NCBI RefSeq assembly: GCF_000235425.2
Contig: NZ_KI912266.1
Span: forward strand, 4,177,581 to 4,241,580
DNA length: 64,000 nt
Direction: 5' to 3'
Source of the DNA: Pseudofrankia saprophytica
GTDB lineage: Bacteria; Actinomycetota; Actinomycetes; Frankiales; Frankiaceae
The notes beneath the pieces are model-generated. The model saw only the letters and a list, made by a program, of their open reading frames with translations, was not told the DNA's origin and did no database searches. This document shows, piece by piece, positions 42,018 through 50,655 of this stretch (position 1 is its first letter; each line of letters opens with the position of its first letter). The position numbers were made by a program, and so were the translations under genes.

Positions 42018-43364
42018 TTGGGTGTGCGGGGTGGGCGATCGCTGGGCCGGCAGTTCGGATGGCTCTGGGCGGCCTTCACGGTCAGCACGGCGGGCACACG
42101 GCTCGCGTTCGACGCGTTTCCTCTGATCGCGATCCTGGTGCTGCATGCCGGGCCGATCGAGGTCTCGGAGCTGGCGGCGGCCGGGCTGGCGGTGGGGGTG
42201 GCCGTGGCGGTGCCGCTGGGCCCCTGGGTGGAGTTCCGCCGCAAGCGGCCGGTGATGGTGGCGATGGACCTCACGCGGTTCGCCGCGGTGCTGAGCGTCC
42301 CCGCGGCGTTCGCGGTGGGTTCGCTCAGCTTCGCCCAGCTCCTGGTCGTGTCGGTCATCGTCGCGGCGGCCGACATCGCCTTCGTCGCCGCCAGTGGCGC
42401 GTGCCTGAAGGGCATCCTGCGGGGAGACGACCTGCTCGTCGCGAACGCCCGCCTCGAGTCCACGACCTGGACCGCCACCGTGCTCGGACCGCCGCTCGGC
42501 GGAGCCATGATCGGTCTTTTCGGGCCCGTGACGACCGTGGTGGCCGACGCCGTCAGCTACCTGCTCTCGGCGCTGGGTATCCGCGCCATGGGCGGACGGG
42601 AGCCGCAGCCAGCCCAGGCGCGGTCCGACCGGCCTCAGTTGCGAGCCCGCGATCTCCTCGAAGGATGGCGGTACATCCTCACCGATCCCGCGCTGCGCCC
42701 GTTGTTCGCCAATACGATCATGGTCAATGGGCTGATCATGGCGACGTCGCCGCTGCTCGCCGTCCTCATGCTCGGCCGCCTTGGTTTCGAACCCTGGCAG
42801 TACGGCCTCGCGTTTGGGGCGCCCTGCGTCGGTGGTCTCGTCGGCTCCCGCCTTTCGCGACCGTTGGTCGCGCGATACGGATCGCGACGGGTGATGCGCG
42901 TCGCGGGTGCGGCGCGCGCCTGCTGGTCACTCGGACTGGCCTTCGTCTGCCCCGGCACGGCCGGGATCGTGCTCGTCATCGCCGTCCAGCTCGGCCTGGT
43001 CACCTGCGTGGGAGTGTTCAACCCCGTGTTCGCCACCTACCGGCTCGACCACACCGATCCCCAGCGTGTCGCCAGGACCCTGGCGGCCTGGTCGATCACC
43101 AGCAGGGCCGGGACCGCGGCCCTGACCGCCCTGTGGGGCGTGCTCGCCAGCCTCACGGGGGCCCGCGTCGCGATCGCGGCCGCCGGGCTCCTTCTCCTGA
43201 CGACCCCGTTCGCGCTGCCGCGGAACGCCGAGGGGAGTCGGCCAGGGGAGAGGCTGGCGGACTCCCCTCGGGCACGGTCAGTAGGTGCCTTCGGCGATGT
43301 CGTCGACGCCCAGCTCGGCCAGCAGGCAGGAGCGCAGCGCGGCGAACGCGGGGTCGGAGCGTAG
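42018..43364 (+). CDS. MFS transporter (EntS-like exporter)
   Basis: A roughly 448-residue protein with about 10-12 membrane helices (FGWLWAAFTVSTAGTRLAF at the first helix). The motif-A-like loop LGPWVEFRRKRPVM lies after helix two, and DTA/LAT-like repeats follow. Several starts are in frame: GTG 42000, TTG 42018 and GTG 42024. TTG 42018 is chosen because GGAGG lies 6 bp upstream. The last 30 residues are encoded opposite the 3' end of ssuB and look non-conserved. It probably exports a small drug or siderophore-like compound under LysR control. Confidence 0.85.
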   Translation: MGVRGGRSLGRQFGWLWAAFTVSTAGTRLAFDAFPLIAILVLHAGPIEVSELAAAGLAVGVAVAVPLGPWVEFRRKRPVMVAMDLTRFAAVLSVPAAFAVGSLSFAQLLVVSVIVAAADIAFVAASGACLKGILRGDDLLVANARLESTTWTATVLGPPLGGAMIGLFGPVTTVVADAVSYLLSALGIRAMGGREPQPAQARSDRPQLRARDLLEGWRYILTDPALRPLFANTIMVNGLIMATSPLLAVLMLGRLGFEPWQYGLAFGAPCVGGLVGSRLSRPLVARYGSRRVMRVAGAARACWSLGLAFVCPGTAGIVLVIAVQLGLVTCVGVFNPVFATYRLDHTDPQRVARTLAAWSITSRAGTAALTALWGVLASLTGARVAIAAAGLLLLTTPFALPRNAEGSRPGERLADSPRARSVGAFGDVVDAQLGQQAGAQRGERGVGA

Positions 43365-44135
43365 CCGCGGCGGCGCGACGTCCACAGGGACGTCGAGGGA
43401 CAGCCGGCCGTCGGTGAGGACCAGCACGCGGTCAGCCAGCAGGATCGCCTCGTCGACGTCGTGGGTGACGAACAGGACGGCGGGGCGGTGGCGGCGGCAC
43501 AGCTCCCGCAGCAGGGCGTGCATCCGGATGCGGGTCAGGGCGTCGAGCGCGCCGAACGGCTCGTCGAGCATCACCAGGTCCGGCTCGCGCACCAGCGCCC
43601 GGGCGAGTGCCACCCGCTGTGCCTCGCCGCCGGACAGCGTCACCGGCCAGGCCCGTTCCCGGCCCCCGAGCCCGACCTCGGCGAGCGCCGCCCGGCCGCG
43701 GGCCGCGACGTCCTTACCGGGCAGGCCGAGAGTGACGTTGCCGAGCGCCCGGGTCCACGGCAGCAGCCGTGCCTCCTGGAAGACGACCGAGCGTCGCGTC
43801 GCCGCGAGCACGTCGCCCTCGATGGCGGTGTCGAACCCGCCGAGGATGCGCAGCAGCGTGCTCTTGCCCGATCCGCTGCGCCCGAGCAGCGCGACGAACT
43901 CGCCGGCGGCGATCGTCAGGTCCAGGCCGTCGAGCACGACCCGCTCGCCGAAGGCCCGGCGCAGGCCGCGCACCCGCACCGCCACGCCGTCGGTGTCGCC
44001 CCCGGTCGGTCCGGCCGATCCGGCGGCAGAAGCGGTGCGGTCGGTCAGGCCGGTCAGGCCGGGGGCCTGGCTGGCCTCATCCGGGGTGCCAGTGGGCGCC
44101 GGGGTGCTCAGGTGCCGCTGAAGCCGCGTCGCCAT
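43278..44135 (-). CDS. ssuB: sulfonate/taurine ABC transporter ATP-binding protein
   Basis: A 285-residue ATPase. A Thr/Pro-rich start (about 45 residues) precedes Walker A LLGRSGSGKSTLLRILGG, VVFQEARLLPWTRALGNV (typical of SsuB/TauB/NrtD), signature LSGGEAQRVALARAL and Walker B LVMLDEPFGALDALTRI. ATG 44135 overlaps the permease gene by 28 bp. It is last in the roK-tauD-ssuACB order. Its 3' end overlaps the convergent MFS gene by 87 bp. Confidence 0.9.
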   Translation of the reverse strand: MATRLQRHLSTPAPTGTPDEASQAPGLTGLTDRTASAAGSAGPTGGDTDGVAVRVRGLRRAFGERVVLDGLDLTIAAGEFVALLGRSGSGKSTLLRILGGFDTAIEGDVLAATRRSVVFQEARLLPWTRALGNVTLGLPGKDVAARGRAALAEVGLGGRERAWPVTLSGGEAQRVALARALVREPDLVMLDEPFGALDALTRIRMHALLRELCRRHRPAVLFVTHDVDEAILLADRVLVLTDGRLSLDVPVDVAPPRLRSDPAFAALRSCLLAELGVDDIAEGTY

Positions 44136-45049
44136 GACAGCAGACTCCCTTCGAGAACGCGGACGATGCCGTCGCAGAGCAGGCCGAGCACACCGTAGAT
44201 CACCAGGCAGAGAATGATGATGTCGGTGCGGTTCCAGCCCTGGGCGCTGGTGAGCAGGTAGCCGATGCCGCGGTCGGTGTTGACCTGCTCGGCGAAGACC
44301 AGCAGCAGCCAGGCGACGCCGAGCGACCAGCGCAGCCCGATGAGGAATCCGGGCAGTGCGCCGGGAACGATGACGCGGCGGATGAGCCCGAGGCGGCCGA
44401 GCCCGAACGTGCGGCCGGCCTCCACGAGCTTGACGTCGACGCCGCGGATGCCGGCGAACGTGTTCATGTAGACCGGGAAGACGACGCCGGCCGAGATCAG
44501 GAAGATCTTGGCCGACTCGCCGATGCCGATCCAGACAATGATCAGTGGCAGCAGGGCGATGATGGGGATCGTCCGCAGGAAGTTCATCGACGAGTCGACG
44601 ACGTGCTCGCCGGCGCGGAAGAACCCGGCGAGGACGGCGAGGACTAGGCCGGCCGCCACGCCGAACAGCACGCCCCAGCCGACCCGGACGAGCGACACCG
44701 ACAGGTTGTCCCAGAGCTCTCCGTCGCCGGCCAGATCCCCGAAGGCGCGGGCGACGGCCAGTGGCGAGGCGAGTACCCTGCCGCCGACCAGACCCGTACC
44801 GGTGATCGCCCACCAGACCGCGAGCAGCACCGCCGGGCCCGTGAGCCGGCGGATCCAGCCGGGAGCCGACAGCCGGGTCCCGTGGGAGCGCCGGCCGCCG
44901 GTGGGGTCCTCGAGGGTGGGCGTGGTCGCCGCGGGCGCGGCGTTCGCGCGCCTCCCGGCCGCGGCGCCGCCGGCCGGCGACGCGGGAAGGCCGCGGGGAT
45001 CGGCCCCCGGCGGTGGGACGATCGTGGGCAGGTAGCCGACCTCCGTCAT
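44108..45049 (-). CDS. ssuC: sulfonate/taurine ABC transporter permease
   Basis: A 313-residue inner-membrane permease. The first 65 residues are Pro/Ala-rich and cytoplasmic, followed by six helices. The EAA loop reads EAGRTFGLGRLGLIRRVIV. ATG 45049 overlaps the binding-protein stop as ATGA. It matches the SsuC/TauC/NrtB group. Confidence 0.9.
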   Translation of the reverse strand: MTEVGYLPTIVPPPGADPRGLPASPAGGAAAGRRANAAPAATTPTLEDPTGGRRSHGTRLSAPGWIRRLTGPAVLLAVWWAITGTGLVGGRVLASPLAVARAFGDLAGDGELWDNLSVSLVRVGWGVLFGVAAGLVLAVLAGFFRAGEHVVDSSMNFLRTIPIIALLPLIIVWIGIGESAKIFLISAGVVFPVYMNTFAGIRGVDVKLVEAGRTFGLGRLGLIRRVIVPGALPGFLIGLRWSLGVAWLLLVFAEQVNTDRGIGYLLTSAQGWNRTDIIILCLVIYGVLGLLCDGIVRVLEGSLLSWRRGFSGT

Positions 45050-46086
45050 GTCGTCAGCCCGGCGGCGGCGAACTTCCCGGTGAGTTCGGCGTTGAAGGCG
45101 GCGTCGATCTCGTCGCCGACCGTGAGAGTCTTCGGAAGCTGGCCGGCGTCGATCAGCAGGTCGGCCTGCTTCTGCTGGAACTGCGCGAAGTCGTCGGTGA
45201 CCGGTGCGTACTGGGTGGCCGGCAGGCTGTCGAAGAACGTCCGGCTGGTGGCCGGGTCCTGCTTGAGCAGCTGGACGTAGTACGCCTGCACCCACGCGTC
45301 CGGGTGCGCCTTCGGCCAGGTGGAGGCGCGGGAGAGCCGCACGAGGAAGTCCTCGATGGCCGTGCGCCTCGTCGGGTCCTTCAACGCTGACTTCGAGGCG
45401 AGGATGACGGAGTACTGCGGCAGCGGCGCCGTCTCGATCTCCTGGGCGCCGGTACCGGTGAGCGCGGCACCGTACTGGCTGACCCAGACGACGGCGTCCA
45501 CCTGGCCGGACGTGAACGTCGAGACGAGGCTCGTGGCCGGGACGTTCACCAGCGTGACGTCCTTCTCGGTGAGCCCGGCCGAGTCCAGCTGCTGGAGCAG
45601 GTAGCCGTGCAGCGACGTGCCGACGGTGACGGCGACCTTCTTGCCCTTGAGGTCGGCCGGCGTATGGATGCCGGAGTCCTTGCTCACGTAGATCGTCTGC
45701 GAGTTCCTGGTCGACTTGGCGACGGCCACCGCCGTGATGCCGGCGGCCGAGGCGTTGGCGAAAAGCACGGGCGTGTCGCCCATGAAACCGACGTCGAGCC
45801 GGTTCGCGCTGAACGCGGCGTTCATGTGCGGCCCGTCGGCGAACGTGCTGTAGTCGAGGCCGAACGGGGCGCCCTTGTCCTGCCCGGACAGGGTCAGCTG
45901 CAGCTCGAGGGTCTTGCCCTGGTCGCCGACCCGCAGCGTGGTTTTACCGCCGGGGGACGACGGGGACGAGGACGACGATTCCCCACCGCCACCGCAGGCG
46001 GCGACGCCCACCGCCAGCACGGCCGCGATGGCGGCGAGGGAGTACAGCCGTCTACGCGGCCTTCGGTGCTGCATCGGATTCTCCAT
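45046..46086 (-). CDS. ssuA: sulfonate-type ABC transporter substrate-binding lipoprotein
   Basis: A 346-residue lipoprotein. The signal peptide ends in the lipobox VGVAAC (about residue 31), then a Gly/Ser linker. The NMT1/SsuA-like fold shows LRVGDQGKTLELQLTL, LDVGFMGDTPVLFANASAAG and PADLKGKKVAVTVGTSLHGY. ATG 46086 is used; MQHRR at 46074 is an alternative. Pairs with the following ssuC and ssuB and with tauD upstream, which supports sulfonate or taurine as ligand. Confidence 0.88.
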   Translation of the reverse strand: MENPMQHRRPRRRLYSLAAIAAVLAVGVAACGGGGESSSSSPSSPGGKTTLRVGDQGKTLELQLTLSGQDKGAPFGLDYSTFADGPHMNAAFSANRLDVGFMGDTPVLFANASAAGITAVAVAKSTRNSQTIYVSKDSGIHTPADLKGKKVAVTVGTSLHGYLLQQLDSAGLTEKDVTLVNVPATSLVSTFTSGQVDAVVWVSQYGAALTGTGAQEIETAPLPQYSVILASKSALKDPTRRTAIEDFLVRLSRASTWPKAHPDAWVQAYYVQLLKQDPATSRTFFDSLPATQYAPVTDDFAQFQQKQADLLIDAGQLPKTLTVGDEIDAAFNAELTGKFAAAGLTT

Positions 46087-46252: not shown

Positions 46253-47227
46253 TCAGCCGGCGAGGAACGGCTGGCCGGCGACCAGCTCGGAGGAGCGGCC
46301 GTCGACGCCGACCGGGACGTCGCCCTCGAGCGTCACCCGGTAGAGCACCCGGTCGAACTCGGTGATGTCCACGTCGGACGGGCCGAGGTGGGCGGTCGCC
46401 CGGTTGTCCCAGAACGCGATGTCACCCGGATTCCAGCGGAACCGGACGGTGTACTCCGGGCGGGAGATCTGCTCGTAGAAGAGGTCCAGGATCGCGCGGC
46501 TCTGGCGTGGGCCGAAGCCGATGATCTCGTTGTCGCGGCTGGTGAAGCTCGGGCTGACGAACAGCGCCCGCTCGCCCGTCTCCGGGTGCACCCGCACGAC
46601 CGGGTGGATCGCCACCAGCGGGTTCTCCTTGATCTTCTTGCCGAACTCGCTACCGTCGAAGACCGGCTGGCCGAAGCTGTGCTTCGCGCGCAGCCCGTCG
46701 GCGAGCCGCTGGAGCGGCTCAGGCAGCCCCTCGTAGGCGGCGACGAGGTTGGTCCACTGCGTGTCGCCGCCGTAGGGCGGCACGATCTCGGCGCGCAGGA
46801 TGGAGCCCGCCGGCGGGTTCACCAGCGCCGTGACGTCGGTGTGCCAGCCGTTGTCGTAGGTGACCTTGAACTTCTTCTTCGCGTCCTTGGCGCTCTCGGC
46901 GTCCAGGGAGCCGAACAGCTTGTTGTAGCGGCGGCTGTCGATCGGCAGGATCTCCGGGAAGCCCTCGGGCGGAGCGTCCTCGTGCGGGTGCGCCGGGGTG
47001 AGCTGGCCGAACCGCCGGCCGAACGCGACCTGCTGGGCGTGGTCGATGTGCTGGTCGCGGAAGAACACGACCTTCCAGCGGTGCAGCGCCGCCCGGATCT
47101 CGGCTACGGCGGCGTCGTCGAGATCCTCGCGCAGGTCGACGCCGTGGATCTCGGCACCGATGTTCCCGGCGACCGGCCGGACGTCGATGCCCAGGTCGGT
47201 GGGCGCGCTCGTTGTCGGGCTTGTCAT
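46253..47227 (-). CDS. tauD: TauD/TfdA-type 2-oxoglutarate-dependent dioxygenase
   Basis: A 324-residue Fe(II)/2-oxoglutarate dioxygenase. GWHTDVT near residue 128 holds the H-x-D pair, WDNRATAHLG near 279 the distal His, and RVTLEGD near 297 the 2-oxoglutarate-binding Arg. VFFRDQHIDHAQQVAFGRRF and HPETGERALFVSPSFT match taurine/alkylsulfonate dioxygenases. ATG 47227 has GAAGGGAAG about 15 bp upstream. It would release sulfite from a sulfonate. It is first of the tauD-ssuA-ssuC-ssuB block on the minus strand. Confidence 0.9.
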   Translation of the reverse strand: MTSPTTSAPTDLGIDVRPVAGNIGAEIHGVDLREDLDDAAVAEIRAALHRWKVVFFRDQHIDHAQQVAFGRRFGQLTPAHPHEDAPPEGFPEILPIDSRRYNKLFGSLDAESAKDAKKKFKVTYDNGWHTDVTALVNPPAGSILRAEIVPPYGGDTQWTNLVAAYEGLPEPLQRLADGLRAKHSFGQPVFDGSEFGKKIKENPLVAIHPVVRVHPETGERALFVSPSFTSRDNEIIGFGPRQSRAILDLFYEQISRPEYTVRFRWNPGDIAFWDNRATAHLGPSDVDITEFDRVLYRVTLEGDVPVGVDGRSSELVAGQPFLAG

Positions 47228-47843: not shown

Positions 47844-49274
47844 TCACCGGCCGGCCGCGACGACGGACAGCGCGCCTCTCGTCGGGCGGGCCGGCGCGCC
47901 GTGGCCCAGGCCGGCGTCCACGCCCTGCGTCGGGGCCGTTCGCGCCAGCGGCGCGCGTACGCTGCGCGGGCTGCGGTGCACCGCGCCGAGGATGCCGGCG
48001 GCCGCGGCGACGGCGAGGACACCCGGCCCGAAGCTGCTCGGCCGCACCACCCGCTCCGGCGCGCAGCGGGCTCGCGAGTGGGCCGCGACCTCGGCGTGCA
48101 CGTCGGCGATCAGCTCCGGCCACTGCAGCGTCGCGAGCTCCGTGACGACGAGCACCTCCGGGTCGATCATGTCGATCAACAGCGCCGCGAGCCGGCCGAT
48201 GAGGCGCAGCCGGGCGCGCACCAGCGTCAGGGCGGCGGGCTCCCGCGCGGCGACGGCCGCGGCCAGCAGGCGGATGTCGGGCCGGGAGATCATCCCTTCG
48301 GCGACCGCCCTCGCCAGCCACACCCGCTCGGACAGCGTGGCCTGGGCGCATCCCGTCCCGCCGCAGGCGCACCGCTCGGTGGCGCCGGGGATGCGCAGGT
48401 GCGCCACCCCGCCGGCCGCCGAGCGCTGACCGCGCAGCACGGTGCCCTCGAGCGCGATCGCGGCATCGACGACATGGCCCGCGAACAGGTGGACGAGGCC
48501 GAGGCGCGCCCGCGGGTCGCCGAAGAGGATCTCGGCCTGGGCGAGCGCGCGGGCGTGGCCCTCGACGTGCACCGGCAGGCCGGTCGCCGCGCGCAGCTGG
48601 GCGGCGACCGGCACGTCGCGCCAGCCGAGCGGCGCGTGCTCGAGAATGGTCCCGCCGCGTGCGTCGACCAGGCCGCCGCTGACGACGCCCACGCCCAGCA
48701 GACCGCCACCGCCGCCCTGCCGCGCCGCGCCGCCGGTGGCACGGGTGCCGGCACCCGGGTGAGCCGCCTGGTGGCGGCGGACGAAGTCCGGCAGGTGCCG
48801 GCTGATCAGGGCGAGCACCCGAGCAGGGTCGCCGTCATGGTCGACCTCCTCCTGGGCCACCACCCGGCCGCGCAGGTCGACCAGGCCGAAGGTCAGCATC
48901 GGCACCGCGATGTGCACGCCGCAGACGAGGTGGCTCGCGGTGTCGACGTCGACCGGGACGTGCGGGCGTCCGGCCCTGGGCGCGGCCTGCTGGGCGCCGG
49001 GCAGCTCCCGCAGCAGGCCCAGCGAGATCAGGTCGGCGGTCTGGCGGGACACGGCGGCCGAGCTGAGCCCGGTCGCCTGCCCGATGGTGGCGCGGGCGAG
49101 CGGGCCGTGGTCTAGGACGGCGCGCAGTACGGCCGCCGCCGAGCCACCGGAGCGTGCCGGGTCGGCCTCGGCTAGCGCGGTGGCGTCCACCGTCGAGACC
49201 CGGACGGCCTCACGGCGGGGATCGGGTCGATGCTGACCCGCGGGCGACAGGCGAGCCGGGGAATGCGTGGGCAC
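47844..49274 (-). CDS. ROK-family transcriptional regulator of the sulfonate locus
   Basis: A 476-residue ROK repressor. An N-terminal winged helix (about residues 40-90, ARATIGQATGLSSAAVSRQT) is followed by a sugar-kinase-like ROK fold with VGVVSGGLVDARGGTI, DARARLGLVHLFAG and a zinc site CACGGTGCAQA near residue 303. GTG 49274 has AGGAGG 7 bp upstream, itself part of the palindrome AGGAGGTCCT; the ATG at 49340 has none. It is preceded by a leader peptide and followed on the same strand by the tauD-ssu genes. The ligand, perhaps sulfur-related rather than a sugar, is inferred. Confidence 0.88.
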   Translation of the reverse strand: MPTHSPARLSPAGQHRPDPRREAVRVSTVDATALAEADPARSGGSAAAVLRAVLDHGPLARATIGQATGLSSAAVSRQTADLISLGLLRELPGAQQAAPRAGRPHVPVDVDTASHLVCGVHIAVPMLTFGLVDLRGRVVAQEEVDHDGDPARVLALISRHLPDFVRRHQAAHPGAGTRATGGAARQGGGGGLLGVGVVSGGLVDARGGTILEHAPLGWRDVPVAAQLRAATGLPVHVEGHARALAQAEILFGDPRARLGLVHLFAGHVVDAAIALEGTVLRGQRSAAGGVAHLRIPGATERCACGGTGCAQATLSERVWLARAVAEGMISRPDIRLLAAAVAAREPAALTLVRARLRLIGRLAALLIDMIDPEVLVVTELATLQWPELIADVHAEVAAHSRARCAPERVVRPSSFGPGVLAVAAAAGILGAVHRSPRSVRAPLARTAPTQGVDAGLGHGAPARPTRGALSVVAAGR

Positions 49275-49451
49275 GGGAGGACCTCCTGGGCGGCGGGAGT
49301 CGCGGGGTTCCGCGTAGGTCGCGCGGTCAGGCGGGCCCATCGGCTGGCGGGAGTCGACACGCGGGGGAGGGGCGTGTCGGGGTTTCCTCGCCGTCGTGGC
49401 CGGTCGGCGCGAGGCCAGGGAGGCACTCGCGCGGATGGGGACGCCGGGCCG
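49275..49451. other. attenuator-like leader between leader peptide and ROK gene
   Basis: CGACACGC (49355-49362) and GCGTGTCG (49372-49379) form an 8-bp stem with a 9-nt CT-rich loop on the minus strand. The loop could pair with the AGGAGG SD of the ROK gene. No other gene is seen. Confidence 0.45.
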
Positions 49452-49538
49452 TCAGCGGCCGGGCCGACACAGTGCGCTGGCGACGCGCCGCAGGTCGATG
49501 TGGGCGCGGCTCACCAACAGTGGGAGGCGGGCGGGCAT
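49452..49538 (-). CDS. 28-residue leader peptide, probable cysteine attenuator
   Basis: ATG 49538 opens a 28-codon frame containing SRAHIDLRRVASALCR and ending PGR. This matches, from memory, the actinobacterial putative leader peptides (R-x-HIDL-x-R-V-x-SA-x-C) found before cysteine and sulfonate genes, in which translation of the Cys codon reports Cys-tRNA level. A TAGCGT -10 lies only 7 nt before the ATG, so the transcript is probably leaderless. It is followed by the ROK gene and then the sulfonate block on the same strand. Confidence 0.75.
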   Translation of the reverse strand: MPARLPLLVSRAHIDLRRVASALCRPGR

Positions 49539-49545
49539 GTTGGCG

Positions 49546-49574
49546 ACGCTAGGGACCGCCACCAGCATTGTCAA
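49546..49574 (-). promoter_or_regulatory. sigma-70-type promoter of the leader peptide/ROK operon
   Basis: On the minus strand, TTGACA (49574-49569) and TAGCGT (49551-49546) are spaced 17 bp. Transcription should start at about 49539, at the leader-peptide ATG. Confidence 0.75.
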
Positions 49575-49695
49575 CTAAGTCGGTGAAGATATGGGAATGC
49601 GACGGTGATGTGGCCCGGTTGTGACGCGAGGGTCGCAGAGATGTGGCCTTTGCTCGTGCGGCGCTGGCGTTGACCTGCCAGGGCCAGGCCTGGCG

Positions 49696-50655
49696 CTAGC
49701 CGGCGCTCGCGGCCAGGCCGGTCGCGTCGAGGAGCTCGGTGCGCAGCTCGTGCGCCCCGTCGGGCCGGCTCGCCTCGTAGTAGATCCGGTGGGAGCCGTC
49801 GGGCAGGTCGACGACGGTGAGGTAGCGCAGCGCCCCGTCGCCGTGCGGGGCGCTCGCGTGCGCCGCCGCCCCGACCGCGTCGAACCGGGCGAAGCCGGCC
49901 TCCGCCGGGGCGGCGGTGGCGACGCCGGTGCGCTCGTACCAGTTCTCGGCGGCGCTCGCCCGACCGTCGTAGAAGGCGACGGGCGGGGTGTGTCCGGCCA
50001 GCACCGCGGTGATGCGCACGCCGCGGGCGTCCCAGCGGCCGGGCCGGGGCGCGAGGGCGACGCCATGCCACGTCCAGGTCACGCCGTCCGCGCTGGTCGC
50101 GTACCGGCTCTCCATCCGGTCGGTGGCGCCTGGGTCGTCGAGGAAGTGGCAGGAGGCCCACAGGTGCCAGCGACCGTCGTGCCAGAGCACCACCGGGTCC
50201 TTGACGGCGGTGTGCTCGTCGCCGGGCAGCACGGTGCGCCGCTCGGTCGGGTCGAAACGGGCTGGATCGTCGGCCTCCAGCAGGTCCACCCACCAGTGCG
50301 GGCTGCCGGGGGTGGCACAACTGACGTACAGGCGCCAGCGACCCTCGGGCGTGTGGACGAGGGCGGGGCGTTCCAGCGACTCGGCACCGAACGGTTCGCG
50401 GCTGATGCGCGCGATCTCGGTGAACCGCTCACCATCCGCGGATGAGGCGATCACGACGCCGAAGCCGCGCCCCTCGCCCACCGGGCGGCGCAGCCGGTAG
50501 GCCAGGTAGTACGTGCCATCCACGAGCAGCGCGCTCGGCGCGCCCGCCCAGTTTCCCGGCCCGCCCCCTTCGGGGGCCACCACGGTGACCGCCGGCTCCC
50601 AGTGGGGAAGCGGGAGCGTCGGCGTCTGGTCGCGAACCGGGGAGGTGATCGACAC
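49696..50655 (-). CDS. five-bladed beta-propeller glycoside hydrolase-like protein
   Basis: A 319-residue protein of the GH43/GH117/GH130-like propeller fold. Visible blades include [60 protein letters not shown] and [20 protein letters not shown]; acidic residues at DG and KDP positions are candidate catalytic sites. No signal peptide is seen. Substrate unknown; transcribed towards, but separately from, the sulfonate leader. Confidence 0.7.

Follow-up and report, generated by a model that had tools for sequence, protein, structure and literature searches.

We identified a 28-codon leader peptide ahead of a ROK-family regulator gene and the sulfonate genes tauD-ssuACB in Pseudofrankia saprophytica. 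The single cysteine codon of this leader is UGU, as is the corresponding codon in all members of its family that were read. Our best overall explanation, with a probability of roughly 0.7, is that a cysteine-responsive, ribosome-mediated leader sets the dose of the sulfonate-operon regulator. The element is of a known kind, has a conserved architecture and follows a codon rule that is apparently unreported. Positions refer to the window, the whole 64,000-nucleotide stretch of DNA that was analysed, and its relevant features are as follows.

49574-49569, minus strand: -35 hexamer TTGACA of the leader-ROK promoter, a perfect consensus
49551-49546, minus strand: -10 hexamer TAGCGT, 17-nt spacer from the -35 and 7 nt to the ATG
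49538-49452, minus strand: leader ORF MPARLPLLVSRAHIDLRRVASALCRPGR, 28 codons plus stop, ATG at 49538; member of family NF042934
49467-49469, minus strand: UGU cysteine codon (codon 24), the proposed sensor codon
49464-49443, minus strand: hairpin P1 (GCC.GGCCG-CUGA-CGGCC.GGC), predicted by folding; begins immediately 3' of the UGU and holds the leader stop codon in the loop
49379-49355, minus strand: 8-bp hairpin CGACACGC/GCGUGUCG, noted earlier and limited to near relatives
49287-49282, minus strand: Shine-Dalgarno sequence AGGAGG of the ROK gene
47844-49274, minus strand: ROK-family regulator with ROK domain, probable winged HTH and CxCGxxGC motif
47813-47792, minus strand: imperfect inverted repeat TTTCTTCCATCTAGTCGGAAAA, operator-like, conserved, 2 nt upstream of the tauD -35
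47789-47760, minus strand: separate tauD promoter TTGACC-18-GACGAT, conserved beside the ROK stop
47698-47591, minus strand: candidate 35-codon, Shine-Dalgarno-led small ORF with cysteine codons in the tauD 5' UTR (by eye, at four loci of the genus)
46253-47227, minus strand: tauD, taurine dioxygenase family (family scan)
45046-46086, minus strand: ssuA-like sulfonate-binding protein (family scan)
44108-45049, minus strand: ssuC-like permease, 313 aa, trimmed to an MTEV start, named from position and sequence alone
43278-44135, minus strand: ssuB-like ATPase, 285 aa, trimmed to an MATR start, named from position and sequence alone

Leader, promoter and regulator gene

The earlier note had read this locus as a TTGACA-17-TAGCGT promoter ending 7 nt before the ATG of a 28-codon frame, followed by a ROK gene and then tauD-ssuACB; these positions and this gene order are borne out on the minus strand. 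A leader-family search with the 28 residues, which the note had proposed, matched NCBIfam NF042934 (cis_reg_atten, 'putative leader peptide') at 35.1 bits, above the cut-off of 27 (E 7.1e-9), with the peptide aligned to the full profile (positions 1-19). Together with conserved -10 spacing, this match upholds the assignment to the actinobacterial cysteine-type leaders with a leaderless-type promoter. Rfam returned nothing on the window at gathering thresholds.

The leader -10 hexamer shares three of six letters with TATAAT, and an automatic search for sigma-70 promoters detected none in 49240-49640. The promoter is nonetheless supported, because its layout is conserved: TAnnnT lies 5-9 nt ahead of an in-frame start in 60 of 61 ROK leaders (from the best 80 of 225 ROK relatives), and the background of a strict -10 ahead of start codons is 0.8% (121/15,390). 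Among Frankiaceae-type leaders, those ahead of ROK orthologues with at least 57% BLAST identity, 17 of 18 have TTGACA, and one (L055) has TTGAAA (by eye). Across the whole family set, 39 of 98 loci passed the strict -10 test; by this test, the leaderless layout has strong support in ROK leaders and partial support in the family as a whole. In the window, the -10 is placed such that transcription would begin at or beside the leader ATG. The -35 lies 121 nt from the end of an upstream ORF (49696-50655, minus strand), which weakly resembles glycosyl hydrolase family 43 (25.6 bits, cut-off 32.2).

The ROK gene likely starts at GTG 49274 behind AGGAGG, rather than at ATG 49340 of the 498-aa longest ORF. 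The Shine-Dalgarno sequence had been described as palindromic. Of 19 Frankiaceae-type loci, 17 have AGGAGG, L066 has GGAGG and L072 has none that was found; the CCTCC partner is not generally conserved. The encoded protein contains a ROK domain (Pfam accession PF00480, E 4.5e-22, 79.4 bits, cut-off 22.9), and its N-terminus matches MarR_2 at 26.5 bits, just below the cut-off of 27. It also aligns with the Mlc and NagC models from near its N-terminus, below their equivalog cut-offs. Many Streptomyces-type loci (L196-L248) have a strongly conserved block like GACGGCGCAGTGTCGGACC in the leader-ROK spacer, directly upstream of the ROK Shine-Dalgarno sequence.

Distribution of the leader family and its pairing with ROK genes

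We searched 117 genomes, including that of P. saprophytica, and identified NF042934 matches at E≤0.01 in 104, with a match above the cut-off in 93. No match at E≤0.01 was found in 14 control genomes; at E≤10, matches appeared in 10 of the 14, none above the cut-off. The P. saprophytica genome (9.98 Mb) has eight matches at E≤0.01, six of them above the cut-off. Their neighbours include genes for sulfite reductase, ROK, rhodanese, ABC permease, SBP_bac_5 and winged-helix regulator proteins, as well as MoaD-like/cysM-like and ssu-like genes that were recognised by eye only.

Sulfur genes are frequent behind leaders of this family. Pfam searches of 97 downstream ORFs, which were chosen by a length and composition rule and are not always the first gene after the leader, identified 20 rhodanese, 16 sulfite/nitrite reductase, 9 SBP_bac_5, 7 PALP, 7 ROK, 7 Trans_reg_C, 6 luciferase-like monooxygenase and 4 cysteine dioxygenase proteins. 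The Trans_reg_C winged-helix proteins, one of which is encoded in the P. saprophytica genome (L009, G000:C1:1262497 region), constitute a second regulator type behind an NF042934 leader. Since both ROK and winged-helix proteins occur in this position, a regulator behind such a leader is not rare.

The single-cysteine leaders overlap with polycysteine leaders. Against NF042936 and NF042933, which describe the cysteine-rich leaders Ms4527A and Ms5788A, the window peptide scores 28.0 and 15.1 bits, below the cut-offs of 45; its 28 codons hold one cysteine codon and thus no contiguous cysteine codons. The polycysteine leader L139, however, scores above both cut-offs, with 45.6 bits for NF042934 and 55.6 bits for the Ms5788A model NF042933, so the two groups overlap as families.

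The earlier note had called the placement of such a leader ahead of a ROK gene unusual. We find instead that the pair occurs from Frankiaceae to Streptomyces. Relatives of the ROK protein were identified at E≤1e-40 in 23 of the 117 genomes. All 18 Frankiaceae-type loci with enough upstream DNA, the window counted, have a leader ahead of ROK; L072 ends at a contig edge. We also scanned the best 80 of 225 ROK relatives in named genomes (Pseudofrankia, Frankia, Parafrankia, Protofrankia, Streptomyces, Kitasatospora, Amycolatopsis and others) and identified a leader within 1 kb upstream of ROK in 61 of the 80 loci. A looser scan added two (L192 and L231), and the upstream DNA of one locus (L180) ends at a contig edge. 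No recognisable leader was found in the other 16 of these best 80, which have ample upstream DNA and comprise all Kitasatospora and Amycolatopsis loci and some from Streptomyces and Actinacidiphila. Sixteen of the 80 loci (15 with a leader) are the same records as in the Frankiaceae-type set.

The conserved cysteine codon is UGU in all members read

We read the codon of the conserved cysteine (NF042934 profile position 19) in 98 loci, drawn from 168 matches at E≤0.01 in the P. saprophytica genome and 26 relatives (8, 43, 44 and 73 matches per search, with at most 30 loci taken from each). Two loci (L005 and L165), in which the profile match ends before the cysteine, were set aside. The codon is TGT in 96 of the 96 remaining members; the other cysteine codons between match start and stop are 73 TGC and 21 TGT. 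Twenty further members from 20 other genomes, hand-picked from the high-scoring end of the list, have TGT in 20 of 20 cases and, at other cysteines, 24 TGC and 5 TGT. The conserved cysteine is therefore encoded by TGT in 116 of 116 profile-found members read. The same holds for 61 of 61 ROK leaders among the best 80 of 225 relatives, a set that partly overlaps the first.

TGT is a minority codon at these loci. In the ROK, TauD and Ssu genes it encodes 17 of 200 cysteines (25 loci, mostly Frankiaceae) and 33 of 445 (non-Frankia), and TGC accounts for more than 90% of cysteines in the ROK-locus genes. The other invariant residues behave differently from the cysteine. Among 89 distinct members, Arg(-13) is encoded by five codons, Asp(-9) by GAC (68) or GAT (21), and Arg(-6) by five codons. 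Because the codons of the motif residues vary while the cysteine codon is fixed, the motif seems to be under selection for its amino acids and the cysteine for its codon. We considered a fixed DNA or RNA motif around UGU and think it unlikely, as the flanking bases vary, leaning to C (after TGT in 67 of 89, before it in 62 of 89). The codon rule cannot be part of NF042934, which is a protein model.

Bacterial tRNA-Cys decodes UGU through a G-U wobble pair, and we infer that UGU is decoded more slowly, or is more prone to starvation, than UGC. The UGU rule is apparently new: we found no statement of it in the open-licence literature searched, where most subscription papers are missing. The Streptomyces-type leaders show two further features. 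Arg(-13) is CGT in all 46 of those inspected (L196-L248), which is not a family-wide rule, and many contain complementary segments, GCGTCGC and GCGACGC (codons -14 to -6).

A separate tauD promoter and a second leader

The gene order is that of one leader-ROK-tauD-ssu operon, as the earlier note had described it. This is not a single plain operon, however, because a separate, conserved promoter next to the end of the ROK gene precedes tauD-ssuACB. We identified TTGAC[CG]-17/18-xAxxxT in 17 of the 17 Frankiaceae-type ROK-tauD gaps examined; it lies no more than 60 nt past the ROK stop in 15 of these, at +104 in L057 and within the ROK end in L067. The Streptomyces-type loci inspected (n=17) carry a related block ending in TTGACA beside the ROK stop. 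Read-through from the leader promoter into tauD-ssuACB may also occur. The operator-like repeat just upstream of the tauD -35 is a single site in its own genome at up to three mismatches.

We further identified a second, leaderless-type leader in relatives, a short ORF that ends Cys-Cys-stop in 45 of 66 non-Frankia loci (32 distinct), mostly from Streptomyces. Its distance from the first base of TTGAC is exactly 37 nt; examples are MSPLTSCRTLCC and MSCRTLCC, each followed by a stop codon. The penultimate cysteine is TGT in 45 of these 45 loci, and the last cysteine is TGC in 42. In a broader scan, 57 of 89 loci had a cysteine-containing short ORF at such a place; in some Frankia this is MNN...RRCRRC and a stop codon. 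That scan had no shuffled control, and its strength is the fixed offset combined with the shared peptide. The genus of the window does not have the Cys-Cys form and has instead the 35-codon Shine-Dalgarno-led ORF in the tauD 5' UTR, a possible counterpart of the relatives' second leader. In these relatives, regulator and target operon would thus each carry a leader, an arrangement that looks new; the open-licence literature searched, where most subscription papers are missing, showed no mention of an additional leader ahead of the ssu genes.

Proposed mechanism and alternatives

The scheme that we infer links a cysteine signal, a ribosome stall, an output step, contact between the ROK protein and an operator, and an activator role. 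Transcription would start at or beside the ATG, so ribosomes would load straight onto the leader. When Cys-tRNA is plentiful, the single UGU at codon 24 would be read through, and the ribosome would stop four codons on and leave. The RNA around the stop codon could then fold into structures such as P1, and ROK output would stay low. When Cys-tRNA is scarce, the ribosome would wait at the UGU and should cover part of P1 with the downstream side of its footprint, and more ROK protein would be made. This protein would then bind the inverted repeat that lies directly ahead of the tauD -35, switching on tauD-ssuACB.

By analogy, the ROK protein is probably an SsuR-like activator, a role suggested by the position of the repeat, which resembles that of a CysR site upstream of a -35. 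An activator would give a coherent logic, in which low cysteine leads to more activator and more sulfonate uptake; a repressor would make the arrangement paradoxical. Several points stand against this best explanation: the leader has one cysteine codon, versus the polycysteine tracts of mycobacterial leaders; 16 of the best 80 ROK loci have ample upstream DNA but no recognisable leader; and the folding, spacer and terminator results given below do not favour it.

A single UGU would suffice if the nascent chain contributed to the stall. The conserved R-x-H-[IV]-D-L-x-R-V-A-S-A-x chain could slow the ribosome in the tunnel, making the leader an arrest peptide that is read at the cysteine codon. 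The invariance of R(-13), D(-9) and R(-6) in spite of their five, two and five codons argues for selection on the peptide, and single-cysteine tails are common among members. A pure arrest peptide, however, leaves the invariant UGU unexplained, and short second leaders such as MSCRTLCC lack the motif. We regard such a peptide-assisted stall as possible, at well under even odds.

The output step has several candidate forms. P1 places the leader stop codon in a predicted hairpin loop, and leader-stop windows generally fold better than shuffled sequences, with a mean z of -1.60±0.18 in 45 Streptomyces-type ROK loci (offset -10), -0.67±0.30 in 19 Frankia-type ROK loci (offset -10) and -0.57±0.12 in 88 other loci (offset 0). 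The stop-codon window is not special in the Frankia-type set, where the +60 and +70 windows are equally low (-0.71). RNAalifold, applied to 34 of the 46 Streptomyces-type spacers, identified no shared pairs, probably because of indels. By eye, a post-stop stem in Streptomyces-type loci changes on both sides (GAGGCG/CGCCTC, GAGTCG/CGACTC, GAGCCG/CGGCTC).

Folding gave no support to unmasking of the ROK Shine-Dalgarno sequence by a ribosome at the UGU. Among the 35 of 66 ROK leaders with a clear Shine-Dalgarno sequence and short enough RNA, masking the UGU changed its accessibility by a mean of -0.024 (8 up, 10 down). When a control mask was placed upstream, at the stop or downstream instead, the mean changes were +0.050 (9 up, 3 down), +0.013 and -0.012, respectively.

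This result bears on two further alternatives. One is that output depends on Rho-dependent or coupling-dependent termination in the spacer instead of Shine-Dalgarno unmasking. No intrinsic terminator (hairpin plus U-tract) was found in 49240-49640, and the leader-to-ROK spacer varies widely, from 63 to 425 nt among the 35 folded loci, which a dedicated Shine-Dalgarno-pairing structure would not easily allow. The structure at the stop codon, on the other hand, suggests that RNA folding matters, and we hold spacer termination only tentatively, as an option with clearly less than an even chance.

The other is translational attenuation, in which a ribosome at the UGU would block a pairing that hides the ROK Shine-Dalgarno sequence, as proposed for mycobacterial polycysteine leaders. 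This mechanism is reported for the M. smegmatis relatives, with general statements in the accessible portions of PMC9031893 and PMC13236596, and the window offers a candidate pairing: leader GUGUCGG (49470-49464) is complementary to CCGACAC (49380-49374) at the 5' arm of the 8-bp hairpin. The lack of a net gain in accessibility across the 35 loci makes it unlikely, as does the pairing itself, which by eye is not kept beyond near relatives. The 8-bp hairpin that the earlier note had described is present in the window (CGACACGC/GCGTGTCG) but is not a conserved part; by eye, L056 retains an altered form of it, and the other orthologues have it broken or lack it. We dropped both the hairpin and the alternative pairing as general parts of the system, since most orthologues lack them (by eye).

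Finally, the ORF might be translated merely to deliver ribosomes or protect the mRNA, with no sensing of cysteine; the cysteine effect proposed here is a prediction from sequence, yet an invariant cysteine with an invariant minority codon and the repeated placement ahead of sulfur genes make this very improbable.

Returning to the cysteine-responsive leader, we can extend it to a more specific and more speculative proposal. Leaders of this class would sense cysteine through one obligatory, wobble-read UGU together with a conserved nascent peptide. In sulfonate loci, the system would be two-tiered, with the leader dosing the ROK activator and a second leaderless cysteine leader gating its operon, and ribosome stalls would form a coherent feed-forward circuit. 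We consider this fuller circuit conceivable, but would not bet on it.

Relation to known systems and significance

Canestrari et al. 2020 reportedly described Ms5788A and Ms4527A, polycysteine leaderless short ORFs of mycobacteria with cysteine-responsive control. The available portions of several articles likewise describe mycobacterial leaderless polycysteine leaders with such control (PMC9094748, PMC9031893, PMC13236596), and the first proposal of these leaders appears in the accessible text of PMC4633059. Like Ms5788A and Ms4527A, the window leader has a leaderless-type start, an RxxxDLxRVxxxxC motif and a place ahead of sulfur genes. Unlike them, it has one cysteine and no cysteine tract, heads a regulator gene and scores below both of their cut-offs. 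No published mechanism was found for single-cysteine NF042934 members.

The accessible part of a study of Corynebacterium glutamicum describes CysR and SsuR as ROK-type activators of sulfur and sulfonate genes, places an inverted repeat at CysR-activated promoters, 3 bp ahead of the -35, and reports control of ssuR, which has a leaderless transcript, by McbR and CysR (PMC2580772). The window repeat, 2 nt upstream of the tauD -35, is like the CysR sites in its position as that text describes it. Unlike C. glutamicum ssuR as presented there, the window ROK gene is preceded by a leader peptide.

A cysS attenuator of Rhodobacterales, uORFC-8-2, is described in the available text as having two tandem cysteine codons, with UGC dominant, and a U run consistent with an intrinsic terminator (PMC8632094). 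The window leader is like this element in having a cysteine codon in a short upstream ORF, and differs in its single UGU. None of the eight leader peptides listed in the accessible part of a Streptomyces lividans annotation is assigned to cysteine (PMC8079986), and a review of Streptomyces sulfur metabolism makes no mention of a leader peptide in its available portion (PMC11356490).

If our reading is correct, one synonymous codon would decide how well a widespread actinobacterial leader senses cysteine. The ribosome would feed sulfur status into a transcription factor, in contrast to the repressor-activator cascade of Corynebacterium, and the UGU rule would help to find and annotate such leaders by their codon signature.
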